64,000 nucleotides of DNA from Elusimicrobia bacterium GWF2_62_30 (lineage in GTDB: Bacteria; Elusimicrobiota; Elusimicrobia; Elusimicrobiales; UBA9959): NCBI GenBank assembly GCA_001799995.1, contig MGUK01000098.1:1-64000 (forward strand), written 5' to 3'. The translations under genes were made by a program, and so were the position numbers. Shown here one piece after another: positions 442-45,790 of the stretch (its first letter is position 1; every line of letters begins with the position of its first letter). The notes beneath the pieces are model-generated. The model searched no databases. It was not told where the DNA came from and was given only the letters and a program-made list of their open reading frames with translations.

Positions 442-505
442 CCAACCCGACAGACGGTTGTCGCGTTGGTCTGCTATGCTATTTATGCGGCAGGGGGGGA
501 TTATG
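442..505 (+). promoter_or_regulatory. dyad-promoter module, copy 1 (KilA-N gene)
   Basis: An 11-6-11 dyad (CCAACCCGACA at 442-452, one mismatch in the 3' arm at 459-469) is followed five bases later by the -10 hexamer TATGCT at 475-480. A G-rich Shine-Dalgarno run at 493-499 precedes the ATG at 503. The dyad centre is 19.5 bp upstream of the -10, as in five other copies. It lies upstream of the predicted start of transcription, so it should act as DNA rather than as an RNA hairpin. Confidence 0.7.
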
Positions 506-1429
506 CATAAAGATATGAGAACGAGCATTGCTGTGCAAGGAACAGCTATCGGCGTACTGATGCGGGCGGTCGGGGATTTTATCTGCCTTACGGACATCGC
601 CAAGCGCAAAGATCCGTACCGCTCTGAACACATAATCCAAAACTGGATGCGGAACCGGAACACCATCGAGTTCTTGGGCGTCTGGGAGCGCTTGAATAAC
701 CCGGATTTTAAACACCTCGAATTCGAGGTGTTTAGAACAAAGGCAGGGCTAAATAGTTTCGTTTTAACTCCAAAGCAATGGATAGAAGCGACCGGCGCTG
801 CCGGGCTTGTCTCCAGATCCGGCCGATATGGAGGCACTTATGCGCACCGGGACATAGCCTTTGAATTCGCGTCCTGGATATCGGTCGAGTTCCGACTCTA
901 TCTCATCAAGGAGTTCCAGCGGCTTAAAGAAGCCGAAACTTTGAAACAGAAAGAAGGCTGGGATATACAGCGCACGCTGGCCAAGGTTAATTACCGCATC
1001 CATACCGATGCCATAAAGGACAGCCTGATCCCGCCGGAGCTCACTAAAAAGCAGATAGACGCGGTTTACGCCAGCGAGGCTGATATTCTTAACGTGGCCT
1101 TGTTTGGAAAGACCGCGGCGCAGTGGCGGCAGCAGAATCCCGGCTTGGCTGGCAACATCCGCGATTATGCCAACATAGAGCAGTTGGTGGTCCTGTCCAA
1201 TCTGGAAAGCGTTAATTCCGTGTTCATCCGGCAGGGATTGCTTCAAAACCAGCGACTGCGGCAGTTGAACCAGACGGCTATCAGCCAGATGCGCTCTTTG
1301 GCTGGTGCGGGAGGTATTAAAAAGCTGGATTCCAGGGAACCTGCGGCGGAGTATGCAGTGCCAGGCGGGGATAAGAAAGGAGCTGAATTGGTCAGCAGGC
1401 TTCTGACCAATTGTAAAAGACGACCATGA
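503..1429 (+). CDS. KilA-N domain protein
   Basis: The product has 308 residues. The N-terminal half is a KilA-N DNA-binding domain of the phage antirepressor type, with the segments RYGGTYAHRDIAFEFASW and LIKEFQRLK near residues 110-147. The C-terminal half is a helical region typical of chromosomal KilA-N proteins. The ATG at 503 was chosen over an in-frame upstream start at 458 because it follows the G-rich ribosome binding site and the -10 of promoter module copy 1. The gene overlaps the next one by 4 nt (ATGA), so the two are probably co-translated. A perfect 26-bp palindrome lies inside the coding sequence at 709-734. The family suggests DNA binding, but the target is unknown. Confidence 0.85.
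   Translation: MHKDMRTSIAVQGTAIGVLMRAVGDFICLTDIAKRKDPYRSEHIIQNWMRNRNTIEFLGVWERLNNPDFKHLEFEVFRTKAGLNSFVLTPKQWIEATGAAGLVSRSGRYGGTYAHRDIAFEFASWISVEFRLYLIKEFQRLKEAETLKQKEGWDIQRTLAKVNYRIHTDAIKDSLIPPELTKKQIDAVYASEADILNVALFGKTAAQWRQQNPGLAGNIRDYANIEQLVVLSNLESVNSVFIRQGLLQNQRLRQLNQTAISQMRSLAGAGGIKKLDSREPAAEYAVPGGDKKGAELVSRLLTNCKRRP
709..734. repeat. 26-bp perfect palindrome with TCGAATTCGA core, inside KilA-N
   Basis: Each 13-base arm is the exact reverse complement of the other, from TAAACACC through the TCGAATTCGA core to GGTGTTTA. It lies in frame in the KilA-N gene and encodes roughly FKHLEFEVF. Two intergenic elements of the same length and core lie at 3391 and 5340. Confidence 0.75.
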
Positions 1430-1746
1430 ACACCTTGCTGGAATATTTATATCGCGATGCTTCCAATTACAAACAGCACGGCAGCGTGGTGCTGCAGGGG
1501 GCCATATCGCTAAAAGACATTCAACCTTTGCTCATTGACGGGGAATACTTCATTCCATCACAGGCCGGGCTACCGGACCTTCAGCATAAATTTAAGGACC
1601 AGGGGTTTGAATATCCAACCGAGGATGATCACGCTTGGCATGAAATCGTTTCAATGCGGCCGAGCAGAAAACAGGCGACGCTCCCTCTTCATCGAAAAGA
1701 GTTCTTAGCGCTGCTGCAAAGATCTCTCCGGGCTTACTGTTTTTAA
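1426..1746 (+). CDS. hypothetical protein downstream of KilA-N
   Basis: This 106-residue protein starts with the ATGA overlap at the end of the KilA-N gene and has no promoter of its own, so it is translationally coupled to it. It has no signal peptide or membrane segment. The sequence is mixed alpha/beta in character (MNTLLEYLYRDASNYKQHG at the N-terminus, HRKEFLALLQRSLRAYCF near the end). The family is not recognised. The constant pairing with an antirepressor-like protein suggests a partner role, which is inference. Confidence 0.7.
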   Translation: MNTLLEYLYRDASNYKQHGSVVLQGAISLKDIQPLLIDGEYFIPSQAGLPDLQHKFKDQGFEYPTEDDHAWHEIVSMRPSRKQATLPLHRKEFLALLQRSLRAYCF

Positions 1747-1782
1747 ACAGACGGAGCTATGCTATTGGCAGGAATAGTGGTC

Positions 1783-1811
1783 TTGACAGAGCGGGAATCA
1801 TCTGTTATGCT
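1783..1811 (+). promoter_or_regulatory. sigma70-type promoter of higBA
   Basis: A perfect TTGACA at 1783-1788 is separated by 17 bp from TATGCT at 1806-1811, preceded by a TG-type extended -10 context. It is the only consensus -35 of this kind in the window and lies 54 bp before the higB start codon. Confidence 0.75.
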
Positions 1812-1816
1812 ATATA

Positions 1817-1835
1817 TATCACCCAAGGGGTGATA
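1817..1835. promoter_or_regulatory. candidate HigA operator
   Basis: The inverted repeat TATCACCC-N3-GGGTGATA has perfect 8-base arms and begins 6 bp after the -10 of the higBA promoter, where a bound repressor would cover the transcription start. Antitoxins of this family usually repress their own operon, so this is the natural operator candidate. Confidence 0.6.
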
Positions 1836-3282: not shown

Positions 3283-3286
3283 TTGA

Positions 3287-3379: not shown

Positions 3380-3390
3380 AAGGCAGAATC

Positions 3391-3416
3391 TAAATCCATC
3401 GAATTCGATGGGTTTA
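3391..3416. repeat. 26-bp near-perfect palindrome with TCGAATTCGA core
   Basis: Two 13-base arms meet at GAATTC with a single mismatch. Length, the TAAA/TTTA ends and the core match the elements at 709 and 5340. It lies between the gene fragment at 3287 and promoter module copy 2. It has no strong T-tract, so it is a weak terminator candidate. Confidence 0.65.
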
Positions 3417-3440
3417 AAATCCCCAAAATACCATAAATAT

Positions 3441-3500
3441 ACCCGACAGACGGTTATCTGGTTCGTCTGCTATGCTATTAACGTGCAAGGGGGGATTATG
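3441..3500 (+). promoter_or_regulatory. dyad-promoter module, copy 2 (DUF1016_N chimera)
   Basis: ACCCGACA at 3441-3448 and the same gacggt loop as copy 1 are followed by a degraded 3' arm. TATGCT is at 3471-3476, preserving the 19.5-bp dyad-to-hexamer distance. A G-rich ribosome binding site and the spacing to the ATG at 3498 also match copy 1. Confidence 0.6.
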
Positions 3501-4751
3501 GCTGCTCAAAAGATTTCTGTGCTGTATAACAAGATCTGCGGCATAATAGAGGCCGCACATGCAGGAGTTTCGCGCTCCGTCAATACGGCGCAGGTCGTTT
3601 CTAACTGGCGCATCGGGCAGGAGATAATAGAAGAGGAGCAGCAGGGCAAGGCGAGGGCCGGGTATGGGGAAGGGTTGATCCGAGAACTCGCCATCCGACT
3701 GCATAATACGTATGGCCCCGGCTACGGACTGACAAATCTTAAATCCTTTAAACAGTTCTATCTCACCTACGAGCATTTACTCGGACCGCAGAAAGGCCAC
3801 GCAGTGCGTGGCCTTTCTCTGATAAAGCCACAGGCAGACGGATTTAGAAAAGGTTACGCACTGCGTAACCAATCTCCTGGTGCGTCGGGAATAGATATCC
3901 CAGGAATTCTCAACGCGCTGCGTGAGAAATCATGGAAGCCTGGGCGATTGCATCCCAATTTGTCCTGGACGCATTATCGTGCATTCTTGCGCCCGGGAAT
4001 TAGAGCGGCAGATAAACACACATTTTTGGATATCCAAAGTTTTCACGGCAATATTTTACAGCTGGCTGCCAGGAGCGAGTCTTACATAAAGGAGCACATA
4101 AACTGGCGGGCGGATCTTACGGGCAGCCAGAGGGTGGAGATCCCTGAGGTGCCAGTCCGCGCGGTCCGGGAGGCCATAATAAATTCCCTGTGTCACAGGG
4201 ACTTTGATAACCCCAAAAGCAACGAGGTCGCTATTTACAAGGACAGAATAGAGATCTTTAACCCCGGCCTTTTTCCCGGAGATTATTCGCCCGAGGATTT
4301 CATTAAAGGGTCCGAGCCCAGCATTCCCCGCAACCCGCTTATAGCTGAAACGCTGTTCCGCTCCGAAGACATAGAGAAATGGGGTTCAGGCCTTAAGCGC
4401 ATCAGCGAGGAATGCAGCGCTGCGGGCGTGAAAGTTTGTTTTAAAAGAATCAAAAGCGGTTTTGCAGTTATCTTTTTCAGACCTGGGTTCAAAAAATCCG
4501 AAGGCGTGACCGAAACAGTTGGGGGTGTAAATGGGGGAATAAATGGCGGAGTAAATGGCGGAGTAAATTCTCTTGAGGCTGAAATAAGAAAGAATCCGGG
4601 ACAGAGGCTTCCCGCGCTTCGTGTTGCACTGAAGGTTCCTGGCAGAACGATAGAAAACTGGATAAGAAAACTTAAAAAGGCAGGGCGGATAATTTATCGG
4701 GGCAGCTATAAAACGGGAGGCTATTTCCCAACAGGGAAAAGGGGTACCTGA
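3498..4751 (+). CDS. chimera: DUF1016_N domain joined to a RecG-like/HATPase_c_4 regulator
   Basis: The product has 417 residues. Residues 1-160 resemble DUF1016_N, the N-terminal part of YhcG-like PDDEXK nucleases (SNWRIGQEI, LTNLKSFKQFYLTY, LSWTHYRAFLR). From about residue 185 the sequence changes to the AlbA_2/HATPase_c_4 'RecG-like' regulator family (REAIINSLCHRDF, KDRIEIFNPG, WGSGLKRI). The end has a GGVN-repeat linker (near 4520-4570) and a winged-helix-like tail. The nuclease half expected after DUF1016_N and the N-terminal half expected before the ATPase-like domain are both missing, so this looks like a fusion by deletion. The start at 3498 follows the module ribosome binding site. 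Two in-frame palindromes lie at 3790-3870. Confidence 0.75.
   Translation: MAAQKISVLYNKICGIIEAAHAGVSRSVNTAQVVSNWRIGQEIIEEEQQGKARAGYGEGLIRELAIRLHNTYGPGYGLTNLKSFKQFYLTYEHLLGPQKGHAVRGLSLIKPQADGFRKGYALRNQSPGASGIDIPGILNALREKSWKPGRLHPNLSWTHYRAFLRPGIRAADKHTFLDIQSFHGNILQLAARSESYIKEHINWRADLTGSQRVEIPEVPVRAVREAIINSLCHRDFDNPKSNEVAIYKDRIEIFNPGLFPGDYSPEDFIKGSEPSIPRNPLIAETLFRSEDIEKWGSGLKRISEECSAAGVKVCFKRIKSGFAVIFFRPGFKKSEGVTETVGGVNGGINGGVNGGVNSLEAEIRKNPGQRLPALRVALKVPGRTIENWIRKLKKAGRIIYRGSYKTGGYFPTGKRGT
3790..3870. repeat. pair of in-frame palindromes inside the DUF1016_N region
   Basis: The first has 14-base arms around a single G (3790-3803/3805-3818, core GGCCACGCA). The second has 9-base arms around a single C (3852-3860/3862-3870, GGTTACGCA/TGCGTAACC). 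Centres are 57 bp apart. Both encode KG(H/Y)A(V/L)R, and they sit where ordinary DUF1016 proteins pass from YLTY to LSW with a shorter linker. Confidence 0.65.
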
Positions 4752-5332: not shown

Positions 5333-5339
5333 TGCTATT

Positions 5340-5365
5340 TAAACCCATCGAATTCGGTGGGTTTA
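5340..5365. repeat. 26-bp palindrome with TCGAATTCGG core, possible bidirectional terminator
   Basis: Thirteen-base arms with one mismatch, ends TAAACCCA/TGGGTTTA, followed by GTTTTTG on the plus strand. It lies between convergent genes, so it may end transcription from both sides. It is the third member of the family seen at 709 and 3391. Confidence 0.6.
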
Positions 5366-6602: not shown

Positions 6603-6609
6603 TTCTCAA

Positions 6610-6694
6610 ACCCGACAGGATGCTGTCGGGCTCGCCTGCTAGGCTATTTATGCGGAGAAGTGGTTGAAGATACTGCGACTATGGAGGGGGTATG
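6610..6694 (+). promoter_or_regulatory. dyad-promoter module, copy 3 (ORF6N gene)
   Basis: CCCGACAG and CTGTCGGG (6611-6618/6623-6630) form perfect arms with a 4-base loop, and TAGGCT is at 6640-6645. The dyad centre is again 19.5 bp from the hexamer. The following CTATTTATGCGG is shared with copy 1, but here 46 nt separate the hexamer from the ATG at 6692. Confidence 0.65.
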
Positions 6695-7063
6695 AATATC
6701 GAGGGACCTGTAATAAAAATAGCAAAAGGTGTATTTATGGCGCGGGGGCAGCGGGTGGTGGCGGCCGCGGACGCCGCAGCCTTCTACGAGGTTACGCCGC
6801 ATGCGCTGTGGGGCGCCGTTGCCCGCAACCGGCGCAAGTTCCCGCGAGAGCTCATGTTCCGGCTTACTCGCCGCGAGCAGGCTGCCGTACCGGCGCTCAG
6901 GCGCCTTACCAAGCCGCCGCTGGTTTTCACGGAGACGGGCGTCTCCATGCTTTCCACCGTGCTCAAAAGCAGCAAAGCCGCGCGTATAAACGTGGAAATA
7001 GTGCGCGAGGTCGTAAAGACAATGAAAAGCCTTGGCCTGAGCGCCTGGGATATGTTGCGGTAG
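6692..7063 (+). CDS. ORF6N domain protein
   Basis: The product has 123 residues and is nearly all ORF6N domain, the DNA-binding module of phage and poxvirus-type antirepressors. Diagnostic parts are the FPRELMFRLTRRE segment near residues 50-62 and PLVFTETGVSMLSTVLKS near 75-92. The ATG at 6692 follows GGAGGGGG. The usual C-terminal extension of larger ORF6N proteins is absent; the protein ends shortly after the domain. It is driven by promoter module copy 3. Confidence 0.8.
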   Translation: MNIEGPVIKIAKGVFMARGQRVVAAADAAAFYEVTPHALWGAVARNRRKFPRELMFRLTRREQAAVPALRRLTKPPLVFTETGVSMLSTVLKSSKAARINVEIVREVVKTMKSLGLSAWDMLR

Positions 7064-7068: not shown

Positions 7069-7131
7069 TAACCCGACAGGCCATTGATGGGTTAGCCTTC
7101 TGCGATATTTGTGGGCAAGGGGGAAATTATG
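7069..7131 (+). promoter_or_regulatory. dyad-promoter module, copy 4 (RhuM-Fic gene), degenerate
   Basis: TAACCC/GGGTTA arms (7069-7074/7089-7094) enclose CGACAG. The -10 position, 19.5 bp from the centre, holds TGCGAT, a decayed hexamer. The ribosome binding site CAAGGGGGAAATT before the ATG at 7129 matches the other copies. Confidence 0.5.
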
Positions 7132-8136
7132 ACAAAAGAACACAGGACAGGTCGGGAGGCGGGCGAGATTGTATTTTATGTCGATAAAAATAAAGGGATG
7201 AGGCTTGAAATAAAGCTAATAAACAACACGCTATGGCTGGATGCGCATAAAATAGCGGCTGTTTTTGGCGTTGGGCGCCCGGCGATAGTTAAACACATAA
7301 ATAACATCTATAAAACCGGAGAACTGCCGGAAAAATCAACCTGTTCCATTTTGGAACAGGTTGCATCTGATGGCAGGGTAAGGGAAATGAACCTTTATAA
7401 CCTGGACATGGTAATTTCAGTGGGCTACCGCGTCAACTCACAGCGTGCCACGAAATTTAGAATTTGGGCCACGGATATCCTTCGGCGGCATTTGGTTGAC
7501 GGCTACACCCTGAATCAAAAACTGCTGGAAGCCAAGGAGGAAAAATTCCTGGCCTTTCAGCGCGCTATAAAGCTGATAGAAACCGTAAAGACCCGCAAGC
7601 CGCTGGAGTACCAGGAGGCCATGGGCCTGCTGGACGTGATCCGAGACTACAGCCGCGCCCTGGGACTGCTGGACGATTACGACCATAACCGCGTTGCGGT
7701 TAAAGGGGTTAGCCGCGGTTCAGGCTTCCGGCTCACTTACGAACTGGCGCTTAAGGCCGTGGCCCAGCTGCAGGCCGGCGCGGGCGGCTCTGCCCTGTTC
7801 GGCCGGGAGAAGGATAAGTCTTTCGCCAGTTCAGTGGGCGCTATTTACCAGACCTTCTCCGGCAGGGAATTGTATGCCAGCGCGGAGGAAAAAGCCGCCC
7901 ACCTGTTGTATTTTATCGTTAAGAACCACTCTTTCGTGGACGGCAATAAGCGTATAGCTGCCGCCCTGTTCCTGTGGTTCCTGGAGAAGAACCGCCTGCT
8001 TTACCGCGCGGACGGTTCTAAACGCCTGGCCGATAACGCCTTGGTGGCTTTAACCCTTATGATCGCTGAAAGCGCGCCGCCCGACAAAGACCTGGTGGTG
8101 CGCTTGGTCGTTAACCTGATAAACAAGGAAAACTAA
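7129..8136 (+). CDS. rhuM: RhuM-like virulence protein with C-terminal Fic/Doc domain
   Basis: The product has 335 residues. Residues 10-130 match the RhuM family (GVGRPAIVKHINNIYKTGEL, NLDMVISVGYRVNSQRATKF, WATDILRRHLVDGYTLNQ). The C-terminal third carries a Fic/Doc active site HSFVDGNKRIAAALFLWFL near residues 266-284, with the catalytic His and the GNKR phosphate-binding residues intact. Fic enzymes transfer AMP or phosphate groups to target proteins. The ATG at 7129 is preferred to a GTG at 7111 because of the AAGGGGG ribosome binding site. A palindrome with 11-base arms (7338-7362) lies in frame. The target is unknown. Confidence 0.85.
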   Translation: MTKEHRTGREAGEIVFYVDKNKGMRLEIKLINNTLWLDAHKIAAVFGVGRPAIVKHINNIYKTGELPEKSTCSILEQVASDGRVREMNLYNLDMVISVGYRVNSQRATKFRIWATDILRRHLVDGYTLNQKLLEAKEEKFLAFQRAIKLIETVKTRKPLEYQEAMGLLDVIRDYSRALGLLDDYDHNRVAVKGVSRGSGFRLTYELALKAVAQLQAGAGGSALFGREKDKSFASSVGAIYQTFSGRELYASAEEKAAHLLYFIVKNHSFVDGNKRIAAALFLWFLEKNRLLYRADGSKRLADNALVALTLMIAESAPPDKDLVVRLVVNLINKEN

Positions 8137-12077: not shown

Positions 12078-12193
12078 GGAGTTATCCCTGAAAACGCGGT
12101 TTAATATCATCACGTTTATAGTATATACGCAAAACCTTGAAAACGTAAGTGCTCAAGGACCCGCCCCGCCATAGGCCCAAAGGCCTACTAGGA

Positions 12194-12276
12194 GGGGACG
12201 CTGATGACTTTATAACTATTTACCAACAGTGCCTCAAGAATTGTTAATAACAAGTCATAAAGTCATCAGCGTCCCC
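12194..12276. repeat. 83-bp palindrome-ended repeat, copy A
   Basis: It begins GGGGACGCTGATGACTTTAT and ends with the complementary CATCAGCGTCCCC; the middle is AT-rich. A second copy of identical length and orientation lies at 14508-14590, on the far side of the pxp operon. Similar short palindromes elsewhere in the window suggest a MITE- or REPIN-like family without its own gene. Confidence 0.8.
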
Positions 12277-12281
12277 TTTGA

Positions 12282-12934: not shown

Positions 12935-14508
12935 CGCTGATAAACTGCGACATTGGCGAGCAGGGCCCCCTGCACGAGGGCGACCGGAAGCTGATGGAGT
13001 TCATTCATATCGCCAATTTGGCCTGCCAGGGCCATGCCGGAGACAAAGACAGTGTTGAGGCTTTCCGCGCCCTGGCCGCTGAGCGCGGCGTGCGGGTGGC
13101 CGCGCACCTTTCCTATCCCGACCGCGAGAATTTCGGCCGCGCCACCATGCGCCTGCCGGACGCGGAGCTGCTGGCCGCCCTTGAAGCGCAGCTGGCGCTG
13201 CTGCCGGGCGTAACGCTGGTGAAGCTGCACGGCGCGCTGTACAACGACGCCTGGCACGACGCCGCCCTGGCGGAACTGCTGGCCGGCTGGCTGCGGCAGT
13301 CGGGCGTCAGCGGGGTCATCGCCCCGGCCGACGCCGAGCTTTCTTTTGCCGCGCGCAAGCAGGGCATAACCGTGCTGCGCGAGGCTTTTGTGGACCGGCG
13401 CTACGTTTACGACGAGCCGGCCGGGCGCCTGCGCCTGGCGGACCGCACCGCGCCCGACGCCGTGATAGCCGACGCCGGCGAGGCCCTGGCCCAGGCAGAA
13501 AACATAATAACCCACGGCCGGGTAAATGTAAGCGGGGACCCGGCCCACCCGGCCTGGAAGGAACTGGAGGCCGATACCGTCTGCATCCATTCCGATTCGC
13601 CCATTGCCCTGGAGCTGGCCGCCGGGCTGCGCGCGGCCATGGACGCCGGGGCCAGGGATAATACCGGCGCCGGCGTTAAGGACAATATCCGCCTGGTCAG
13701 GGCCGGCGTCTGCGAGACCGTGGGCCTGCCCGTCTACGGGCGGCAGGATATCGGCGTGTCGCCGGGCGGGGCCATGGACTGTTTTTCGCTGCGGCGCGGC
13801 AACCTCATGCTGGGCAATGCCGAAGGCAGCCCCGCGCTGGAGATCCTGGCCGCCCCGGAGCTGGAGATCCTGGCGGCGGGGCATTTCGTGCTGACCGGCG
13901 CCCGGCACAAGGCGGTCATCCACAGGGGCGGCAATACGGCGGCGGTGGAGCACAGCCGCGTTTATACGGCCGAGGCCGGCGACCATCTCACTTTCAGCGA
14001 GAAGAGCTACGGCCTGCAGACCTATTTCTGTTTCAGGAGCCGGGCCGAAGGCGGCCCCGGCGGCAAGGCGGCCGAGGCCGTGCCTTACGCGGCCGTAAGC
14101 GGCTGGGCCGACCTGCAGGGGCGCATCCGCGTGGTGCCCGGCCCGGAGTATAAATACCTGGAAAACCCCAAGCTGTTCTTCGAGAACGCCTGGCGCACTA
14201 CCTACAAGATGGACAAAGTGGGCATACGCCTGGCCGGCGAGCCTAAACTGAAATGCGGCGTGGGCAATATGATCTCCGGGGCCGTGGCCGACGGCACCGT
14301 GCAGCTGACGCCGGAAAGCCCCATCATCCTGCTGCGGCACCGCCAGACCACCGGCGGCTACCCGCGCATCTTCAACGTTATCAGCGCCGACATCGACCTG
14401 CTCGGGCAGTACGCTCCCAACCAGGCCATCCACTTCGTGCAGGTCACCCTCGACGAGGCGCGCGCCTTCGCCCGCCAGAAAGAAGCGGCCCTCTCGAAAC
14501 TCCGCTAG
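12931..14508 (+). CDS. pxpA-pxpC: fused 5-oxoprolinase subunits PxpA-PxpC
   Basis: The product has 525 residues. Residues 1-240 are PxpA (LamB/YcsF fold: INCDIGE, LACQGHAGD, LVKLHGALYN). Residues 252-525 are PxpC/KipA (LPVYGRQDIGVSPGGAMDCF, MISGAVADGTVQL, RQTTGGYPRI). In most bacteria these are separate proteins, so the fusion ties the two catalytic parts one to one. The usual ACGFHAGD of PxpA appears as ACQGHAGD. Together with PxpB this should be a complete ATP-dependent 5-oxoprolinase in the cytosol. The stop codon touches the second 83-bp repeat. Confidence 0.88.
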   Translation: MTLINCDIGEQGPLHEGDRKLMEFIHIANLACQGHAGDKDSVEAFRALAAERGVRVAAHLSYPDRENFGRATMRLPDAELLAALEAQLALLPGVTLVKLHGALYNDAWHDAALAELLAGWLRQSGVSGVIAPADAELSFAARKQGITVLREAFVDRRYVYDEPAGRLRLADRTAPDAVIADAGEALAQAENIITHGRVNVSGDPAHPAWKELEADTVCIHSDSPIALELAAGLRAAMDAGARDNTGAGVKDNIRLVRAGVCETVGLPVYGRQDIGVSPGGAMDCFSLRRGNLMLGNAEGSPALEILAAPELEILAAGHFVLTGARHKAVIHRGGNTAAVEHSRVYTAEAGDHLTFSEKSYGLQTYFCFRSRAEGGPGGKAAEAVPYAAVSGWADLQGRIRVVPGPEYKYLENPKLFFENAWRTTYKMDKVGIRLAGEPKLKCGVGNMISGAVADGTVQLTPESPIILLRHRQTTGGYPRIFNVISADIDLLGQYAPNQAIHFVQVTLDEARAFARQKEAALSKLR

Positions 14509-14590
14509 GGGACGCTGATTCCCATTTAACTATTTATCAACAACTTGGAATGGCTTGTTAGTAACAAGTCATAAAGTCATCAGCGTCCCC
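14508..14590. repeat. 83-bp palindrome-ended repeat, copy B
   Basis: It has the same ends, length and orientation as the copy at 12194. The right half (GTAACAAGTCATAAAGTCAT and onward) is nearly identical, while the left half diverges. Its first bases overlap the pxpA-pxpC stop codon. Confidence 0.8.
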
Positions 14591-14593
14591 TGG

Positions 14594-17054: not shown

Positions 17055-17139
17055 CCAACCCGACACGCCTTTGTCGGGTTGGTCTGCTAGGCTATTTGCA
17101 TAGCAGGCGGTGTTAAATTGTCGGTAAGGGGGAAGTATG
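17055..17139 (+). promoter_or_regulatory. dyad-promoter module, copy 5 (ssb), most perfect copy
   Basis: CCAACCCGACA (17055-17065) and TGTCGGGTTGG (17072-17082) are exact complements around CGCCTT. TAGGCT at 17088-17093 follows after five bases. The ribosome binding site TAAGGGGGAA precedes the ATG at 17137. The dyad covers the region where a -35 would lie, and no -35 consensus is present. Confidence 0.75.
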
Positions 17140-27051: not shown

Positions 27052-27110
27052 ATTCTCTCCCGGTAGAGCTATTATGCAATAACGCCGCGGCTTTTAACCA
27101 GCCCAGGGGT

Positions 27111-27163
27111 GGGGTCAGACCCTGGGGTCTGACCCTGGGGTCTGACCCTAGGGTCTGACCCCA
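27111..27163. repeat. tandem GGGGTCTGACCC repeats
   Basis: Four successive copies of the GGGGTC(A/T)GACCC unit, two pairs with alternating TGG and TAG joints, form nested palindromes. The array lies between the HMA gene and promoter module copy 6. Confidence 0.8.
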
Positions 27164-27165: not shown

Positions 27166-27248
27166 AACGCGACACGCCTTTGGCCGTCTGTGGCGCATAG
27201 CGCCTGTTACGGCAGGGCCATAGGCCACTCGCGTTGACCTGCTATGCT
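27166..27248 (+). promoter_or_regulatory. dyad-promoter module, copy 6 (addAB), with a displaced left arm
   Basis: AACGCGA (27166-27172) pairs with TCGCGTT (27229-27235). The right arm ends 8 bp before TATGCT (27243-27248), as GTT does in the other copies. Some 50 bp with two small hairpins (GGCGC-ATA-GCGCC and GGCC-ATA-GGCC) lie between the arms. CGACACGCCTTTG next to the left arm matches copies 5 and 7. Confidence 0.55.
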
Positions 27249-27307
27249 ATACCTGTAGAAGCGCGGCTGGTACAGAAAAAGTAAAATTATGGAAGCAGTG
27301 AACCCGG

Positions 27308-30300
27308 ATGAATAAAAAGAGCGAGATAATCCTTATAAGCGCGTCCGCGGGGTCGGGGAAAACCCATGCCCTGACCCGCCGCTATGTGCGCCTGCTCTTG
27401 GGCGGGGCCGCACCCGAGAGCATCCTGGCCGTAACTTTCACCAACAACGCCGCCAAGGAAATGAAGGAGCGCGTCCTGGGCTGGCTGAAGAAGGCCGCGT
27501 CGGGCGCTGAGGGCAACGAGACCGCGCAGCTGATGGCGGACACCGGCCTGGCCCTGCCGGCCCTGAAGGCCAAAGCCTCGGCGATACTGCAGGACCTGCT
27601 GTGCAATTACTACAACGTGCACGTGCAGACCATAGACAGCTTCCTCAACCGCATCGCCATGTCTTCGGCGGGCGAGTTGGGCATGCCGCTCAACCCCGAG
27701 ATCACCATGAGCCACCGGCGCCTGGTGGACGTGGCGCTGTATTCCATCCTTTCCAAAGAAGGGCGATGCTCGCTTTCGCGCGAGGAGGTGGACGAGTTCC
27801 TGAAGGCCCTGCCGCCGGGCAACGCCTACCCGTGGGACCCCGTGGAGAAGATGCGCGAGATCTACGGCAACTTCCTGGCCTTCGAGGGCAAGTCCGACGG
27901 GCAGATAGTGCCGGCCGATATTAAAGATAAAGATGCTCAGGACGCAAAGGATGCCGTAGTCTCCGCCGGCGCGGCCTTCCTGAAGGCGCTGGACGCCGGC
28001 AAGTATACCTATACCACCAAGAGCAAGCCCAAGGAACCCAAACTTTACGCCGACGCGCTCAAGAACGGCGTCCGCGAGGCCATAGCCTCCGGCAACCAGG
28101 TGCGGATAGCGGGCTGCTTCTCGCGCGATTACGGCTTCTTCAGCGGCGGCAAGGTGCGTACCATCGTCATCCGCCCGGAGCTTGCCGGGCCTATGGCGGA
28201 GGTCAGCGCCGCCATCGGCGCCTATTACCGCCTGCACGCCTATCACCGCCTGAACGGCTTCGTTAAGCTCTACCCCAAGTTCAAGGAAGAGCTGGAGCGC
28301 ATCAAATCCGGCCTGGAAGACGTGGCCCACATCGACGACATAGCCAAGAAGATAACCGGCTACCTGAAAAAGAACGGCGGCACGGCCGTGCCCGAGGTTT
28401 ACATCCGCCTGGGCGAGCGCGTGGAGCATTTCCTGATAGACGAGTTCCAGGACACGGACCCGCTGCAGTGGCGCGCGCTGCTGCCGCTGGTGCAGGAAGC
28501 GCTGGCCCGCGGCGGGTCGCTCTTCGTGGTGGGCGACATCAAGCAGGCCATCTACATGTTCCGCTACGCGGACTACAAGATCATGCGCGAGTTCATGGAC
28601 GTGCTGTACGGCCTGGGCGCCGACGGGGACCCGCTGGGGATGGAGGCGCTGGTCAGCCTGACCGAGCCCGGCGACCGCAAGATAGAGAAGCTGGAAGTGA
28701 ACCGCCGCAGCGGCGGGGTGCTGGTGAAATACGCGGCGGACCTGTTCAAAACCCGCCTGCCGGCCTACAGGGCCGGCGAGGTGCTGGCCGACGGCAACGA
28801 CCCCACCGGGCTTACCACTTACAGCCAGTCCGCCGAAGAGGGCAAAGAAACCGCCGGCCTGGCGCGCGAGCTGGTCTTTTCACGCAAGGCCCTGCGGGAA
28901 AAGTCCAAGACCGCAGAAGCGGAAGAGGCCGACGAGGAAGCCGCCGGGGATATTACCGACCAGCCGGTGGGCGCCAAGGTGGTAGAGCTGATAAAAGAGG
29001 CCCACGCGCGCTACCGCTACGACCAGATAGCCGTGCTGGCCCCGCAGAATAAATATATCCGCGCCGTGGTCTCCTGGCTGAACGCCGCCGGGCTCCCCGT
29101 GGCTTCCATGAGCTCGCTCGATATCCGCGAGCGGCCGGTGGTGGCGGAGCTGATAGCCCTGTTCACTTTCCTGGAATTCCCGGCTAACGACATAGCCTTT
29201 ATGAATTTCGCCTGCGGCGAGCTCTTTCTCAAGGCCTCGGGCCTGCAAAAAGAAGAACTCCTGGCGGCCGCGGCCGAGCACCGCGAGAAACATCACGGCG
29301 GCAGGCCGCTGTACACCACTTTCAAGGAAAGGCACCCGGGCCCCTGGGAAGAACTGCTGGAGCCGCTTTTCGCCAAGATAGGCTACCTGCCCGTTTACGA
29401 GCTGGCCGCGCTGGCTTTCTCTTCGCTGAAGGTCTTCGAGCGGTTCCGGGAGGAATCCTGCTTCCTCGTTAAGTTCCTGGAGGTGCTGTCGGCGCTGCAG
29501 GGCAAGGGCGCGGCGGACGCGCGCAGCTTCATCAATTTCGCTTCGGACGACGGCGAGGACGCGGCCGGCGCTTTCAGCATAGAGCTGCCGGAATACATAG
29601 ACGCCGTGCGCGTGATGACCTTCCACAAGGCCAAGGGGCTCGGCTTCCCGGTGGTGATAAACCTGCTCTACGAAAAGCGCGGACAGGGCGGCAGCGCCTC
29701 GGACAAGAATATCTTCTACGACCAGAGCGGCCCCGGCGGCGAGGTGCGCATCGTTTACATCAACAAAGAATACGGCGACTGGGACGCCAAGCTCAAAGAG
29801 CTTTATGAAGGCCGCGAGGCGGACGAGAAGGTGCAAGCCCTCAACGAGCTTTACGTGGTGACCACCCGCGCCAAGGCCGAGCTGTCCAATTTGGTAGTAC
29901 GCAACAGCGACGAGCAGGGCGGCGGCTCGGCGGGCAAGTTCCATTATGTGTTCGGCGACGAAGAGCGCGGCGCGCCTGACGTAAGCGCAAAGGCCGAACC
30001 GCCAGCGCATAAACCGTCCAGGATCACCCAGCCCGTCTTTCCCGACGTTCCCGCTTCTTCGGCCGGCACCACGCTGGAGGGCCACCGCGCCGCGCAGCGC
30101 GGCCTGCTCTACCACGATATCCTCATGCGCGTGGACTGGCTGGGCGGGGACCTGAAGGCCCGGCTGGCCTCGGCCTTCGACGCCTGCGCCTGGAAATACA
30201 GCCCCGTGCTGCGCGCCGAAAGGGCCGCTATTGCCGACAAGCTTTTCAGCCTGCTGGGCAAACCCGCCGTGGCCGCCTTCTTCGAGCAAAAGCCCGGGCG

Positions 30301-30553
30301 CGCGCTGAAGCGCGAAACCTCGTTCATCTCCGGCCCCGAGGGCGGCCGGCTGCGCCGCATAGACCGGCTGCTGCTGGAGGGCGCCGCGCCCGGCGGCAAG
30401 GCGGTCATAGTAGATTTCAAGACCGGCGGGGAATACCCGGGTTACGAGGAGACGCTGAAGAAATACGCCGCCGCCGTCTCCGACGCTTTCGGGCGGCCGG
30501 CCGAGTGCTGGCTGATCTACCTGGACGAAGAAAAAGCGGAGAAAGTACTATGA
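27308..30553 (+). CDS. addA: AddA-type helicase-nuclease subunit
   Basis: The product has 1081 residues. Helicase motif I is ISASAGSGKTHALT near residue 10, motif Ia AVTFTNNAAKEM, motif II DEFQDTDPLQW and motif V-VI region VMTFHKAKGLGFPV. The C-terminal RecB-type nuclease has VIVDFKTGGEYP. With AddB it resects double-strand breaks. The ATG at 27308 was taken because an ATG at 27289 is out of frame. The gene lies behind promoter module copy 6 and overlaps addB by 4 nt. Confidence 0.92.
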   Translation: MNKKSEIILISASAGSGKTHALTRRYVRLLLGGAAPESILAVTFTNNAAKEMKERVLGWLKKAASGAEGNETAQLMADTGLALPALKAKASAILQDLLCNYYNVHVQTIDSFLNRIAMSSAGELGMPLNPEITMSHRRLVDVALYSILSKEGRCSLSREEVDEFLKALPPGNAYPWDPVEKMREIYGNFLAFEGKSDGQIVPADIKDKDAQDAKDAVVSAGAAFLKALDAGKYTYTTKSKPKEPKLYADALKNGVREAIASGNQVRIAGCFSRDYGFFSGGKVRTIVIRPELAGPMAEVSAAIGAYYRLHAYHRLNGFVKLYPKFKEELERIKSGLEDVAHIDDIAKKITGYLKKNGGTAVPEVYIRLGERVEHFLIDEFQDTDPLQWRALLPLVQEALARGGSLFVVGDIKQAIYMFRYADYKIMREFMDVLYGLGADGDPLGMEALVSLTEPGDRKIEKLEVNRRSGGVLVKYAADLFKTRLPAYRAGEVLADGNDPTGLTTYSQSAEEGKETAGLARELVFSRKALREKSKTAEAEEADEEAAGDITDQPVGAKVVELIKEAHARYRYDQIAVLAPQNKYIRAVVSWLNAAGLPVASMSSLDIRERPVVAELIALFTFLEFPANDIAFMNFACGELFLKASGLQKEELLAAAAEHREKHHGGRPLYTTFKERHPGPWEELLEPLFAKIGYLPVYELAALAFSSLKVFERFREESCFLVKFLEVLSALQGKGAADARSFINFASDDGEDAAGAFSIELPEYIDAVRVMTFHKAKGLGFPVVINLLYEKRGQGGSASDKNIFYDQSGPGGEVRIVYINKEYGDWDAKLKELYEGREADEKVQALNELYVVTTRAKAELSNLVVRNSDEQGGGSAGKFHYVFGDEERGAPDVSAKAEPPAHKPSRITQPVFPDVPASSAGTTLEGHRAAQRGLLYHDILMRVDWLGGDLKARLASAFDACAWKYSPVLRAERAAIADKLFSLLGKPAVAAFFEQKPGRALKRETSFISGPEGGRLRRIDRLLLEGAAPGGKAVIVDFKTGGEYPGYEETLKKYAAAVSDAFGRPAECWLIYLDEEKAEKVL

Positions 30554-33501
30554 GCGGGAATTTCACCCTGCTGCGCCAGGACGAAGACCTGGTCTCAGCC
30601 GCAGCCGGGCTGCTGGCCGGGCGGGAGGACCTGGCCGACTGCGTAGTGGTATTCCCGGGCCGGCGGCCCGCGCATTTCCTGCGCAAGCGGCTGTTCGAGC
30701 AGCTGGGGAAGTCCTTCGAATCACCTGCCATCTATTCCATGGACGAGTTCGCCGGGCTCCTGGCCGAGGCCGGCGGCGCCGCCGGGCCCGAGATAGGCGA
30801 GCTGGACGCGGCCGCCCTCATGCGCGGCCTCGAGCCCGGCATAAAAGGGCTGGGCCCGCTGGCGGGGAAAACCTCGGCCGAGCTGGACTGGTTCCTGCCT
30901 TGGGCTTTGAAAGCTTTCGCCGATTTCGAGGAAATTAAAAAAGAGCTTAAGACCCCGCGCGAGCTGGCCGGTTTTGACCTGAGCCTGGAGGCCGGCGAGG
31001 GCGCGGGCCTGTATAAACGCGCCACGGATTTCGCCGCCAAGTTCGGCGGGTTTTCAAAACTTTACGGCGCTTTTTACGAGGAGCTGGAGAAGAACGGCCT
31101 GTTCACGCCCGCCATGAAATACGCCGCGGCCTCGGAGCCGGGCGCAGCCGAAAAAGCCGGGCTGGGCGAAAAGGGCTTGGTCATCCTGGCCGGCTTCTTC
31201 CTGCTGTCCAAAGCCGAGCGCCGGCTGCTTGAGAACCTCTTCAAGCTTTCTAACTTCCGCCTGCTGGCTCAGGAGGGGCCGGGCCTGGACGAGCGTTACG
31301 AGTTCCTTTCCAAAAAACGGCTTATCCCCGCTATAAAACCTTATACAGCGCCGGCCCCGGACGCCGCCAGGTTCAGCTTCCACAAAGCTGCCGACACCCA
31401 CAGCGAGGTGTTCGCGCTGGGCCAGCTGATGGACAGGAAGGTCCACAGCGAGGACGACGTGATAGTCATCCCGGCGGTGGACGCGCTGTTCCCGGTGGTG
31501 CACCAGGTCCTGCCCGACTTCAAAGAGAACAATATCGCCATCGGCTACCCCATCTCCCATACGCCGGTCTATTCGCTGGTGGATTCCATCGGCAAACTGC
31601 TGGACCGCGCCGATAACGGCGCCTATTTCATCCCCGACTACCTGGACCTGGTCTTCCATCCCTACGTCAAAAGCGCCCTGTACGGCGGCAGCCCGGAGCT
31701 TACCCGCATCCTGTTCCAGGTGCTGCAGGAACATTTCCTGGGCAGGATGAGCCGCTACGCCGAGCTTTCTGCGATAGAAAGCGACAAGGACTTCCTGGCC
31801 GCCGCGCTTAAGCGCCTGGAGCATTACAAGGACTACAGCTCCGTGACCGCGGCGGAGCTCTCCGCCCAGCTTAAAGGCGTGCACGACGCCGTCATCCGCC
31901 CTTTCGAGCAGATAAAATCCATCGGTGACTTCGCCAAGAAGCTGCTGGCGCTGATCTCGTACATCTCCACCGCCACCACGGCGCACAAGCATCCCTACTG
32001 GAAAGATTTTTCCGGGCGCTTCCTCTCGCTGCTGGACGCCGTAAGCGGCACGCGCCTGGCGGGGGAAGCTTTTGCCGCGCGGCCTTCCTATTTCAAGTTC
32101 TTCGGTTCGGCCGTGAAGGGCGCGGTGTATCCCTTCGAGGGCACGCCGGTGAAAGGCCTGCAGGTGCTGGGGCTGATGGAGACCCGCGGCCTGAAGTTCA
32201 AGCGGGTGTATTTCCTGGACGCCAACGCGGACGCCCTGAACGTGTCCGGCGCCGGGGACGCCGTGCTGTCCGATTTCATGCGCGGCCTGCTGGGACTGCC
32301 CACCTGCCGCGAGCGCGAGGCCGAGCGCAAGTATTTCTTCGAAACCCTGCTGGGCGGCGCGGGCGCGGCGCATCTCTTCTACCGCGACAATTCCAAATCC
32401 GAGAAGAGCCCTTTTGTGGAAGAACTGCTGTTCCGCCTGGAAGCCGCGGGCGCCGACCGGGAAAAACTGGAAGACCGGGTGTTCTTCGACCTTACCTTTA
32501 AAAACAAAGAGCCGGCGGCCGTGCCCAAGAACCCCTGGGTGATGGGCAGGCTGGAGCAGACGGCTTTCTCGCCGTCGGCGCTCAACCATTACCTGGCCTG
32601 CCCGCTGCGGTTCTATTACATCAAAGTGCTGGGGCTCAAAGAGCAGGAGGAAGTGTCGGAGGAGATCAGCCGGGCCTCCATCGGCAATATCGTGCACAAG
32701 GCGCTGGAGCTATACTTCCAGCGCGGCGGCAGGCTGGGCAGGCCTTTCGCGCCGGGCGAATTCAAAGAGGAGCTGGCCTTGCTGCTGGCCTGCCTCAACG
32801 CGGCCATGGCTTCTTATCACCTTACCGATGTGGATAAGGGCTACGGCTACGTGATGCGCCGGCAGGTGGAGAAGCGCCTGGAGGACATACTCCATTTCCA
32901 TATCGACGAGCTGGCCGGGTTCACCCCGCTGGCCGTCGAGGCCTGGCTGGAGGCTGCGGTGGCCCTGCCTTCCGGCAAGACGGCTAAACTGGCCGGCAAG
33001 GTGGACAGGATAGACCTGCGCCCCGGCGCCGATGGCGCCGGCGACAAGATAGTGATAGTGGATTATAAGACGGGCTCGGGCGCGAAGGCGCCTTCCTGGC
33101 ACAGCTTCGACCCGGCCGGGCCCCGGGCCGACTGGCCCAAAACCCTGCGCTCGGTGCAGCTGCCAGCCTATGTGCTGATGGCCATGACCGGCAAGGCGAA
33201 GGTGGAGCCCGGCGGCGCCGAGCTCCCGCTCCCCGCCCTGGCCTGCCGCGGCGTGGCGGACTTTGACGCCCGGCTGATGCTGTTGGGACAGCAGGATATA
33301 GCCGAAGAAAGCTTATATAAACCTTTCGGGAAAACCTTGCCCGACGTGCCTTCCGTTTTTGAAAAGTACAAGGGCGCCATCAGCACCCTGCTGGATGAGA
33401 TCCTGGACCCGCGCCTGCCCTTCGCCCCCACCAAACGGGAAGACGACTGCCGCCACTGCCCCTTCAAAGTAATGTGCGGCCGCCAGTGGGTTAAAGAATG
33501 A
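30550..33501 (+). CDS. addB: AddB-type nuclease subunit with Fe-S cysteines
   Basis: The product has 983 residues and starts by ATGA overlap with addA. The N-terminal part is a degenerate helicase fold. The C-terminal PD-(D/E)XK nuclease (VDRIDLRPG, IVIVDYKTGSG) is bracketed by cysteines: one in YLACPLRFYY, three in CRHCPFKVMC (C-x2-C-x5-C), the pattern of the AddB 4Fe-4S nuclease. It pairs with AddA for double-strand break processing. Confidence 0.9.
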   Translation: MSGNFTLLRQDEDLVSAAAGLLAGREDLADCVVVFPGRRPAHFLRKRLFEQLGKSFESPAIYSMDEFAGLLAEAGGAAGPEIGELDAAALMRGLEPGIKGLGPLAGKTSAELDWFLPWALKAFADFEEIKKELKTPRELAGFDLSLEAGEGAGLYKRATDFAAKFGGFSKLYGAFYEELEKNGLFTPAMKYAAASEPGAAEKAGLGEKGLVILAGFFLLSKAERRLLENLFKLSNFRLLAQEGPGLDERYEFLSKKRLIPAIKPYTAPAPDAARFSFHKAADTHSEVFALGQLMDRKVHSEDDVIVIPAVDALFPVVHQVLPDFKENNIAIGYPISHTPVYSLVDSIGKLLDRADNGAYFIPDYLDLVFHPYVKSALYGGSPELTRILFQVLQEHFLGRMSRYAELSAIESDKDFLAAALKRLEHYKDYSSVTAAELSAQLKGVHDAVIRPFEQIKSIGDFAKKLLALISYISTATTAHKHPYWKDFSGRFLSLLDAVSGTRLAGEAFAARPSYFKFFGSAVKGAVYPFEGTPVKGLQVLGLMETRGLKFKRVYFLDANADALNVSGAGDAVLSDFMRGLLGLPTCREREAERKYFFETLLGGAGAAHLFYRDNSKSEKSPFVEELLFRLEAAGADREKLEDRVFFDLTFKNKEPAAVPKNPWVMGRLEQTAFSPSALNHYLACPLRFYYIKVLGLKEQEEVSEEISRASIGNIVHKALELYFQRGGRLGRPFAPGEFKEELALLLACLNAAMASYHLTDVDKGYGYVMRRQVEKRLEDILHFHIDELAGFTPLAVEAWLEAAVALPSGKTAKLAGKVDRIDLRPGADGAGDKIVIVDYKTGSGAKAPSWHSFDPAGPRADWPKTLRSVQLPAYVLMAMTGKAKVEPGGAELPLPALACRGVADFDARLMLLGQQDIAEESLYKPFGKTLPDVPSVFEKYKGAISTLLDEILDPRLPFAPTKREDDCRHCPFKVMCGRQWVKE

Positions 33502-44603: not shown

Positions 44604-44613
44604 GGATTAACCT

Positions 44614-45654
44614 ATGGCTGAAGTAGAACTTAGCAATATCTCCAAGACCTTTGAGGGCGCCCCGCGCCCGGTGCTGACCGATATCTCGTTCACGGTAAAG
44701 GACACGGAGTTCGTCTCGCTCCTGGGCCCTTCCGGCTGCGGCAAAACCACCCTGCTGCGGATAATAGCGGGCCTGGAGGACCAGACCTCCGGCAAAGTCG
44801 CCATAGGCGCGCTCGATATGAACCGCGTAGCCCCGCGCGACCGGGACATGGCTTTCGTGTTCCAGAACTACGCGCTGTACCCGCATTTCTCGGTGGAAGA
44901 TAATATCTCGCTGGGGCTCAGGCTCAGGAAAGTGGATAAAGCCGAGATAACCGCCCGCGTTAAAACCACCACCGAGATGCTCGGTCTTGAGGCGCTGCTG
45001 GAGCGCAAGCCGCGCGCCCTTAGCGGCGGGCAGCGGCAGCGGGTGGCGCTGGCCCGCGCGCTGGTGCGCAACCCCAAGGTGTTCCTGCTCGACGAGCCGC
45101 TCAGCAACCTGGACGCCAAGCTGCGCGACAAGACCCGCGGCGAGCTGAGGCTGCTTTTTAAGAAAGTCAACGGTACGGTCATCTATGTCACGCACGACCA
45201 GATAGAAGCCATGACCATGTCGGATAAGATAGTGATCCTGCAGGAGGGGAAGATACAGCAGGTGGGCACGCCCAGCGAGATCTACGAGAAACCCGCCAAT
45301 ATCTTCGTGGCCACCTTCATAGGCATGCCGCAGATGAACATCCTGCAAAAGAAGGAAATGACCGCGATGGGTTATGCGCTGAGCGGGCCGGAAGCGGGCC
45401 TGTCAGACCTTACCTGCGGTATCCGCCCCGAAGACCTGGAAGTGTCCGCAGCGCCGCGGGAAGGCTGGCTGGAGGCCGCCGTGGACCTCTGCGAGCCTAC
45501 CGGCGCGCTCACCACGCTTACCCTTTCGGCCGGAGGCACGGCGCTGCGCTGCTCAACCACGCTGAAATGGCCCCTGGCGCAGACCCGCGCCTGGTTCACT
45601 TTCAAACGCGAACACATGCATTTTTTCAGCACCGCCGAAGGAACGCGGCTATAA
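44614..45654 (+). CDS. sugar ABC transporter ATPase (MsmK/UgpC type)
   Basis: The product has 346 residues. Walker A is GPSGCGKTT, the signature is LSGGQRQRVALARAL, Walker B VFLLDEPLSNLD, and the switch His lies in YVTHDQ. The C-terminal TOBE part (residues about 240-346) is short, as in multi-sugar ATPases. It energises the fused permease and the second permease in this operon and may serve others. Confidence 0.92.
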   Translation: MAEVELSNISKTFEGAPRPVLTDISFTVKDTEFVSLLGPSGCGKTTLLRIIAGLEDQTSGKVAIGALDMNRVAPRDRDMAFVFQNYALYPHFSVEDNISLGLRLRKVDKAEITARVKTTTEMLGLEALLERKPRALSGGQRQRVALARALVRNPKVFLLDEPLSNLDAKLRDKTRGELRLLFKKVNGTVIYVTHDQIEAMTMSDKIVILQEGKIQQVGTPSEIYEKPANIFVATFIGMPQMNILQKKEMTAMGYALSGPEAGLSDLTCGIRPEDLEVSAAPREGWLEAAVDLCEPTGALTTLTLSAGGTALRCSTTLKWPLAQTRAWFTFKREHMHFFSTAEGTRL

Positions 45655-45668
45655 ACACCGGCAGCAGG

Positions 45669-45720
45669 GCGCTTTTTTGACCAGGCACGCACCTGGCCGG
45701 GGCCATTTTGTAAAAAGCGC
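45669..45720. repeat. long inverted repeat after the sugar operon
   Basis: GCGCTTTTT at 45669-45677 pairs with AAAAAGCGC at 45712-45720. An inner hairpin CCAGG/CCTGG lies at 45681-45696. T-tracts inside the stem on the plus strand allow a terminator role for the sugar operon. Confidence 0.55.
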
Positions 45721-45726
45721 TTGTTT

Positions 45727-45790
45727 CCAAGCCGACACGCCTTTGTCGGGTTGGCCTGCTAGGCTATAGGCGGGGCAAGGAGGACTTATG
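45727..45790 (+). promoter_or_regulatory. dyad-promoter module, copy 7 (102-aa unknown)
   Basis: CCAAGCCGACA and TGTCGGGTTGG (45727-45737/45744-45754, one mismatch) surround CGCCTT, the same loop as copy 5. TAGGCT is at 45760-45765. GCAAGGAGGAC precedes the ATG at 45788. All distances match copies 1 and 5. Confidence 0.7.

Follow-up and report, generated by a model that had tools for sequence, protein, structure and literature searches.

The window analyzed here is a 64,000-nucleotide stretch of DNA (G000:C98:1-64000) from an Elusimicrobiota metagenome-assembled genome (MAG), G000, which comprises 2.91 Mb in 99 contigs and is 84% complete. It contains seven copies of a short module, an inverted repeat (dyad) set upstream of a promoter −10 element, which precede ssb, the addAB genes, and several accessory genes. 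The full module reads CCCGACA-N6-TGTCGGG followed by TGnTAnnnT, with the dyad centered 19.5 bp before the −10 hexamer and without a −35 element. The copies and the genes behind them are listed here with bit scores from R1, a sequence-only model of the module built from 17 sites.

442-480, plus strand: module copy 1; dyad 442-469, extended −10 TGCTATGCT, hexamer 475-480 (50 bits, E = 6e-13)
503-1429, plus strand: KilA-N domain protein, after copy 1 (Pfam KilA-N, 2e-21; PADLOC PDC-S22, 8e-132)
3439-3476, plus strand: module copy 2; degenerate 3' half TTATCTG, hexamer TATGCT at 3471-3476 (43.8 bits)
3498-4751, plus strand: DUF1016_N and HATPase_c_4 chimera (Pfam, 8e-20 and 5e-17; PADLOC PDC-S02, 7e-29)
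6608-6645, plus strand: module copy 3; perfect core dyad, hexamer TAGGCT at 6640-6645 (47.9 bits)
6692-7063, plus strand: ORF6N protein (Pfam, 3e-15; PADLOC PDC-S05, 5e-25)
7069-7106, plus strand: module copy 4, degenerate; 3' half TTGATGG, hexamer TGCGAT at 7101-7106 (38 bits)
7129-8136, plus strand: RhuM-Fic protein, start according to the 335-aa frame (Pfam RhuM, 1.5e-21, and Fic, 4e-12; PADLOC PDC-S23, 8e-123)
17055-17093, plus strand: module copy 5; perfect dyad, hexamer TAGGCT at 17088-17093 (55.3 bits)
17137-17607, plus strand: ssb (Pfam SSB, 1.4e-21)
27167-27248, plus strand: module copy 6, split, before addA; CGACA at 27170-27174, 46 bp extra, decayed ACTCG at 27227, TGCTATGCT, hexamer 27243-27248
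27308-30553, plus strand: addA-like UvrD helicase (Pfam UvrD-helicase, 5e-40)
30505-33501, plus strand: addB-like PDDEXK protein (Pfam PDDEXK_1, 6e-36)
45727-45765, plus strand: module copy 7; perfect core, hexamer TAGGCT at 45760-45765 (49.4 bits)
45788-46096, plus strand: small protein without a Pfam or NCBIfam match
46143-46649, plus strand: YgjP-like metallopeptidase (Pfam, 1.6e-42)

All seven copies named in the original prediction exist; a repeat search recovered them independently as one family (D1, 54 nt), the other six being 61 to 83% identical to the reference copy. The core of the dyad that they were said to share is perfect in three of the seven (6612, 17060, and 45732), carries one mismatch at 447 and two at 3443 and 7073, the last belonging to the degenerate copy at 7069, and is split in the addA copy. 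CCGACA-N6-TGTCGG with up to two mismatches matched the window 11 times (2.31 expected; 0 of 100 shuffles reached 11); six of these matches are module copies and five are other matches, the split copy being missed by the pattern. The proposed TATGCT/TAGGCT-type hexamer holds for six copies, as TATGCT in those at 442, 3441, and addA and TAGGCT in those at 6610, 17055, and 45727, and fails in the copy at 7069, where it is TGCGAT. In all six undisplaced copies the dyad center lies 19.5 bp from the hexamer, as proposed. The 5' CGACA of the addA copy does lie 46 bp further upstream than normal, but its 3' half, described as keeping its position, has decayed to ACTCG; R1 matched only the 3' part of this copy (27229-27251, E = 0.008). 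In a relative, G018, the module before the AddA-like gene is weak (L173, 27.7 bits), with its dyad not displaced. Pfam searches agreed with the gene names originally given (KilA-N, DUF1016_N/HATPase, ORF6N, RhuM-Fic, ssb, and addAB), and all four accessory genes match PADLOC phage defense candidates, which are candidates by association. Products resembling the small protein at 45788-46096 were also read by eye behind the module in two relatives (L086 and L121); its gene and the YgjP-like gene perhaps form one operon.

The module recurs in register throughout the genome and the genus. Allowing up to three mismatches, the whole-module pattern occurs at 15 places in the own genome, versus 0 for a reversed control, and R1 gave 17 strong matches there (E < 1e-7), or 20 at E < 0.01. 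A search for the dyad by itself found 15 exact copies, 13 of which have TGCTAnnCT at the same offset (one is a diverged copy); the other two lack that sequence and fall within long frames, of 609 and 672 aa. Each of the 32 genomes in the genus set (the own genome and 31 others) contains the module, with 9 to 64 matches at E ≤ 0.1; here and in the R1 counts above, some dyads are counted again through a small number of partial or reverse-strand matches. The family members searched beyond the genus have fewer matches or an altered form, such as CGCGACA-N6-TGTCGCG in G033. Among 196 sampled genomes of the class, a match at E ≤ 0.01 was obtained in 37, and at least eight hits in 25; these 25 all belong to one family, 17 to this genus and 8 to three other genera. 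The motif-bearing relatives, 68 stretches in all, are MAGs or "bacterium" bins labeled Elusimicrobia, Elusimicrobiota, or Elusimicrobiales, plus one contig labeled Lentisphaerae bacterium GWF2_45_14 (L139, MHBG01000097.1), whose perfect module may reflect either misbinning or transfer. A literature search, judged from part of the titles and the beginnings of abstracts, found no earlier report of such a regulon in Elusimicrobiota.

Module anatomy was read from 127 sites scoring >22 in seven genomes (G000, G005, G010, G013, G018, G022, and G030). The scorer that chose these sites includes the −10; the dyad-only test above, in the own genome, gave 13 of 15. TAnnnT stands at its fixed position in 126 of the 127 sites, and in 117 it belongs to an extended −10, TGnTAnnnT, which the original prediction had overlooked. 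The upstream half-site CGACA is present in 123 and the downstream TGTCG in 108; both CGAC/GTCG half-sites, eight nucleotides apart (N8) and over the −35 position at a fixed distance from the −10, occur in 105. The absence of a −35 consensus is borne out, since no site has a TTGACA-like element with four or more matches at any spacer of 15 to 19. Distances from the −10 to the start codon vary from 3 to 183 bp by automatic gene calls, so the constraint acts between dyad and polymerase rather than between dyad and gene. An exact register kept before so many genes would be easier to explain by an activator that docks on polymerase than by a repressor.

Perfect arms in many copies might suggest that the dyad is a hairpin in RNA or single-stranded DNA (ssDNA), such as a terminator or a REP-like element. 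Some extra pairing does occur at outer positions 11 and 13, where 2 and 3 of 500 shuffles reached the observed value, and less at positions 2, 9, and 12. However, the core arms are near-invariant and do not covary, at position 6 the right arm is altered without the left in 16 of the 127 sites, with loss of pairing, and no T run follows the dyad. Because compensatory change is weak and confined to outer positions, we rejected the hairpin, to which we give next to no chance, and favor the protein-binding site originally proposed. Two other assignments were set aside. An integron-like or dif-like recombination site with an 11-6-11 layout was raised by the same-strand arrays of accessory genes, but the central hexanucleotide is variable and the register with the promoter exact; a DNA uptake sequence would be expected to be more numerous than 9 to 64 matches per genome.

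The original prediction had left a choice between a stress or DNA damage regulon and a mobile promoter repeat, the latter spreading before genes without a common regulatory role. Many accessory genes carry the module, 12 of the 127 sites precede a transposase cluster (representative Y1_Tnp), and long upstream flanks are common to some copies, all of which would suit a mobile repeat. Flank pairs within a genome reach 60% identity in 0 of 1,139 comparisons downstream, however, and in only 19 of 1,139 upstream. At orthologous promoters (ssb, radC, recA, a small gene, and the anti-MBL site described below), the 42-bp module is 74 to 81% identical, whereas the 58 bp upstream are 25 to 39% identical without gaps (ssb, 39%; others, 25 to 27%) and 34 to 45% at the best of 13 shifts; the module has been kept while its flanks were randomized, and shared descent of the flanks does not explain it. 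Its register with the −10 is also exact. From the flank comparison we rejected a mobile repeat as the main explanation, and we consider that reading highly improbable; the regulon is favored by the genome-wide and genus-wide occurrence, the fixed −10 spacing, and the recurrent repair targets.

Mobile elements may nevertheless have inserted at some copies. Near-identical upstream sequence ending in ATGAGCGACA is found, within each genome and near contig ends, at five G010 sites (L288, L290, L296, L298, and L301) and three G030 sites (L249, L250, and L257), and upstream of three G005 sites (L222, L223, and L227), at 86, 133, and 86 bp, stands another, partial dyad (CCCGACA-N6-T), the stretch in between being common to them. 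The repeated sequences directly adjoin the core CGACA-N6-TGTCG. The addA copy of the window (27167-27248) is likewise split inside its dyad. This suggests that elements insert into the dyad, leaving the core and −10 in place, which could explain the displaced half of the addA copy; the regulatory dyad may be the target site for a mobile element. Other repeats lie close by. An inverted repeat centered on TCGAATTCGA, perhaps a terminator, stands beside module-bearing accessory genes (window 706-734, 3388-3416, and 5337-5365; also L234), and GGGTCTGACCC palindromic repeats occur near some module copies (window 20768-20797 and 27110-27163; also L008 and L013). These palindromes and the module-driven RAYT-type transposases are a possible REP/RAYT pair. 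Two long imperfect inverted repeats, at 12193-12277 and 14507-14591, have ends AGGGGACGCTGAT and ATCAGCGTCCCCT and are separated by about 2.2 kb; they may represent a small mobile element pair.

Genes downstream of the 127 sites were called with a simple script that considered the length of the open frame, its start codon, and its ribosome site, and were tallied by frame clustering across the seven genomes. The script yielded some spurious frames, for example, antisense to the MBL gene, and starts recQ too far in. Behind the module stand ssb in 7/7 genomes (8 sites), radC in 7/7, and recA in 5/7, with a weak site in a sixth, G013; the recA promoter stretch of the own genome reads N. They are joined by recQ, DUF2779, and DUF3800 (each 4/7, the last at 5 sites), a DNA modification/repair radical SAM protein and YifB/ComM (3/7 each), a Y-family polymerase (2/7), and AddA (1/7, G018; the split site in the own genome falls below the score cut). 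A family of 97 to 99 aa, of unknown role, follows the module in 6/7 genomes, and one of 61 to 65 aa near the WYL gene discussed below follows it in 5/7 by clustering; two sites at the matching place (G022 L270 and G030 L252) were called in another frame and placed in a separate cluster. Accessory clusters comprise Y1/RAYT-type transposases (12 sites), DUF1016/Schlafen-AlbA proteins (10), and ORF6N proteins (7). Domains were checked in one representative per cluster, the names of the remaining products being read by eye; the checks confirmed RecA, RecQ domains, IMS (Y-polymerase), Mg_chelatase (ComM type), rSAM_link_UDG, RadC, HsdM, C-5 cytosine methylase, DUF2779, DUF3800, SLFN_AlbA_2, and Y1_Tnp. 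In other genera of the family we saw, also by eye, the module before ORF6N, DUF1016, transposase, and cytosine methylase genes, a possible operon leading to recQ in G033, and Cas3-like genes in G033 and G035. The Cas3-like label of the products at L155 and L168 was also given by eye.

A further site faces the 3' end of an MBL-fold gene in 7/7 genomes by frame similarity, the MBL gene itself having been read in five. The module here points into the 3' end of the convergent gene (L344 985-2186, L345 1057-2117, L346 6269-7327, L347 986-2043, L348 7948-9005, L349 4306-5409, L351 1606-2666, and L354 3244-4332), which in G005 is ComEC/Rec2-like, below the model cutoff; in several relatives the same strand carries, at a greater distance, the 530-aa helicase-type gene with its WYL domain. 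An antisense or noncontiguous operon arrangement is possible.

Regulator candidates were searched genus-wide among WYL and LexA proteins. A LexA-like protein of 218 aa is encoded divergently from recA (Peptidase_S24, 1.5e-18; LexA_DNA_bind, 3.7e-6; NCBIfam lexA, 83 bits against a cutoff of 111), and its position beside recA was read in G018, G005, G030, G022, and G013. The protein of G018 (L188 76-729) and its orthologues have, by eye, a Cys-Gly near the usual place of the cleavage site. The recA genes of G018 and the own genome also have a separate TTGACA/TATACT promoter upstream, which recalls P1 and P2 of mycobacterial recA, as given in the portion of PMC5656591 available to us. The dyad might on this evidence be the LexA box of the lineage, bound over the −35 by a repressor that is cleaved after damage: the targets are SOS-like, with recA, ssb, a Y-family polymerase, recQ, and addA as in a LexA SOS regulon, and the placement of the dyad over the −35 would be natural for a repressor.

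Unlike a LexA regulon, however, the module is independent of the presence of LexA. A PF01726 search found matches in relatives but none in the own genome; a dedicated profile found the recA-linked protein in 21 of the 32 genus genomes (in the own genome as a contig-edge fragment) and did not detect it in 11, all of which retain the module, with 39 matches in G002, 19 in G004, 23 in G006, 16 in G009, 31 in G010, 26 in G011, 11 in G019, 20 in G021, 9 in G023, 64 in G027, and 16 in G031. Two of these have other candidates, a 155-aa frame with a LexA DNA-binding match in G027 (7e-8) and a 309-aa frame in G002 (9e-4, below cutoff). The other nine, draft genomes that include G010 at 99% completeness, gave no LexA-type match in either search. 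Mean module matches are 24.9 (9 to 64) in the 11, 19.0 (9 to 31) in the 9, and 21.8 in the 21 with the LexA-like protein. In G010 the module stands at recA though the neighboring gene is not lexA, G033 has module hits and no LexA match while G034 has LexA and no module, and a repressor needs no exact −10 register. Since LexA-type proteins went undetected in genomes that keep the module, LexA is improbable as the reader of the dyad, despite the initial support from its gene beside recA.

The WYL search yielded a stronger candidate. A winged helix-turn-helix (wHTH)-WYL-WCX protein is encoded in the own genome outside the window (G000:C56 2073-3053), with Pfam matches to HTH_11 (25.5 bits, cutoff 25), WYL (41.9), and WCX (45.8). 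A typical genus genome has two WYL genes, one for this factor of 314 to 327 aa and one for a protein of about 530 aa; a scanned representative of the latter is a PIF1-like helicase that ends in a WYL domain. Searches recovered the factor from 29 of the 32 genus genomes, at 66 to 79% identity to the own copy. Searched against 177,635 PDB sequences, it gave six matches at E ≤ 0.01, PafC and five of DriD type (four named DriD; 7u02 aligns identically); a profile search gave PafBC, DriD, and BrxR 7qfz; and Foldseek, run with a modest model of the factor, ranked DriD 1 to 5 and PafBC 6 (TM-score of about 0.45; structural alignment identity to DriD of 19 to 24%). The nearest solved relatives by both routes are thus DriD and PafBC. 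Two arginines of the predicted recognition helix, R40 and R44, do not vary among 42 aligned WYL factors; a weak alignment with DriD places them opposite arginines of that protein.

The factor is also linked to the module. In 16 of 19 fetched genus loci a module in the same orientation lies downstream of its gene, at 87 to 1,864 bp in 15 and 3,603 bp in G018; in the own genome it stands at C56:4721, 1.7 kb past the factor, and in G191, of another genus, about 270 bp past. Across the 196 class genomes, all 25 with at least eight module hits have the factor at E < 1e-100 by a profile (A5) built from the genus sequences plus G033, G035, and a paralogue of G008.

DriD, the homodimeric WYL activator of a non-SOS damage response in Caulobacter crescentus, shares the wHTH-WYL-WCX layout and is the best structural match; PafBC is a mycobacterial heterodimeric WYL activator that works by sigma adaptation. 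In the portions of the reports available to us, both become active when ssDNA occupies the WYL domain, DriD over the −35 anchors polymerase on poor promoters, and PafBC slips between sigma4 and the DNA (PMC12340889, PMC11804915). The DriD consensus given there, ATACGAC-N7-GTCGTAT, lies over the −35 with the same −10 distance at its promoters (PMC12340889), and the module resembles it in its CGAC/GTCG half-sites, its dyad over the −35 at a fixed −10 distance, and its poor −35 (PMC12340889). The module differs in its CCC/GGG outer arms, in having recA and ssb among its targets, and in number, with 9 to 64 matches per genus genome versus the five DriD target promoters named in the available text (PMC12340889). 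PafBC likewise controls a damage regulon with recA and needs no −35 contact. Its consensus, tTGTCRgtg-8nt-TannnT, has the same register as TGTCR-N11-TAnnnT (PMC5656591, available part), a form present in 108 of the 127 sites. Of the heterodimer, PafB by itself touches one element near −26/−24, according to the parts available (PMC11804915, PMC12340889), whereas here a single gene encodes the factor in most genus genomes, with no PafB and PafC pair or fusion, and the full dyad suggests two bound half-sites. CapW and BrxR, WYL repressors of defense systems, share the WYL fold at a lower structural rank and defense-type genes as targets. They are local repressors of one operon, unlike the genome-wide, in-register promoter element described here.

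A DriD-like palindrome in a DriD-like place, combined with a PafBC half-site at PafBC spacing, points to an ssDNA-activated WYL dimer, and we consider that the module is probably an activator-dependent promoter for a DriD/PafBC-related, ssDNA-sensing WYL factor. Several observations weigh against this. The half-sites are spaced by N8 rather than the N7 of DriD, a form found at 0 of the 127 sites, and for this reason we do not assign the factor as DriD itself. Its structural model is modest (pLDDT 74, pTM 0.37) and its wHTH matches DriD at just 1.9 bits; with PafBC being heterodimeric, the likeness rests on the WYL/WCX part. Three of the 19 genus loci (G010, G031, and G002) have no module near the factor within the fetched stretch, and the other seven of eight factor loci in other genera show none above a score of 18. 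The factor went undetected in three module-bearing genus genomes, G004 (90% complete), G019 (74%), and G020 (66%), and outside the genus in G032 (81%), which also has module hits; MAG incompleteness may account for these absences. Only three further class genomes reach E < 1e-100 for the factor (G035, G036, and G211), with one or two hits. The co-occurring genomes all belong to one family and the profile comes largely from the same genus, so co-occurrence is not independent of descent, and shared descent could yield the same pattern. Several targets, such as the transposases and DUF3800, are not repair genes. No module lies upstream of the factor's own gene in the scanned loci; DriD is likewise not self-regulating, according to the available part of PMC12340889.

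The dyad might instead be read by some other regulator, for example, of competence, with the WYL factor linked and coinherited by chance. comM, radC, and ssb belong to competence regulons elsewhere; all three are module targets here, in the genus a module is directed at a ComEC-like MBL gene, and the WYL assignment draws on homology, linkage, and co-occurrence within one family. Against this stand the resemblance of half-site and spacing to two independently studied WYL damage activators and the nearness of the WYL gene to a module in 16 of the 19 genus loci. With WYL and LexA proteins as the candidates searched across the genus, we judge another reader to be unlikely.

Under the WYL activator reading, the module would be a sigma-70-type promoter that depends on its activator, with the dyad in the place of the −35, centered at about −31.5. 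When replication forks are damaged or stall, the resulting ssDNA would bind to the WYL domain and let the wHTH domains of a homodimer grip both half-sites of CCCGACA-N6-TGTCGGG; the bound factor would then substitute for the −35, holding RNA polymerase on a promoter whose sole core element is an extended −10. recA, ssb, radC, recQ, the Y-family polymerase gene, comM, and addAB would be switched on together with phage defense and mobile element genes. Induction by DNA damage is what we infer from the gene content and from the relatives of the candidate regulator, whose DNA binding, ssDNA sensing, and activation of transcription are predicted on the same comparative grounds.

We tentatively suggest, at somewhat less than even confidence, that in one Elusimicrobiota family an ssDNA-sensing WYL activator serves as an SOS-type master switch, that LexA has become redundant and been lost in up to one-third of the genus, and that phage defense, modification, and transposase genes have repeatedly been plugged into the in-register module. 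The promoter would unite the palindrome of DriD with the −10 spacing of PafBC, which are maybe variants of one architecture. The analysis provides a candidate regulator, its predicted binding site, and a target list, as well as a comparative bridge between DriD and PafBC promoters, and it gives a functional context to recurrent genes of unknown role (DUF1016, ORF6N, DUF2779, DUF3800, and the two small families). If this proposal is true, a whole uncultured lineage would run its DNA damage program by activation rather than by LexA derepression, and that program would be tied to phage defense genes.

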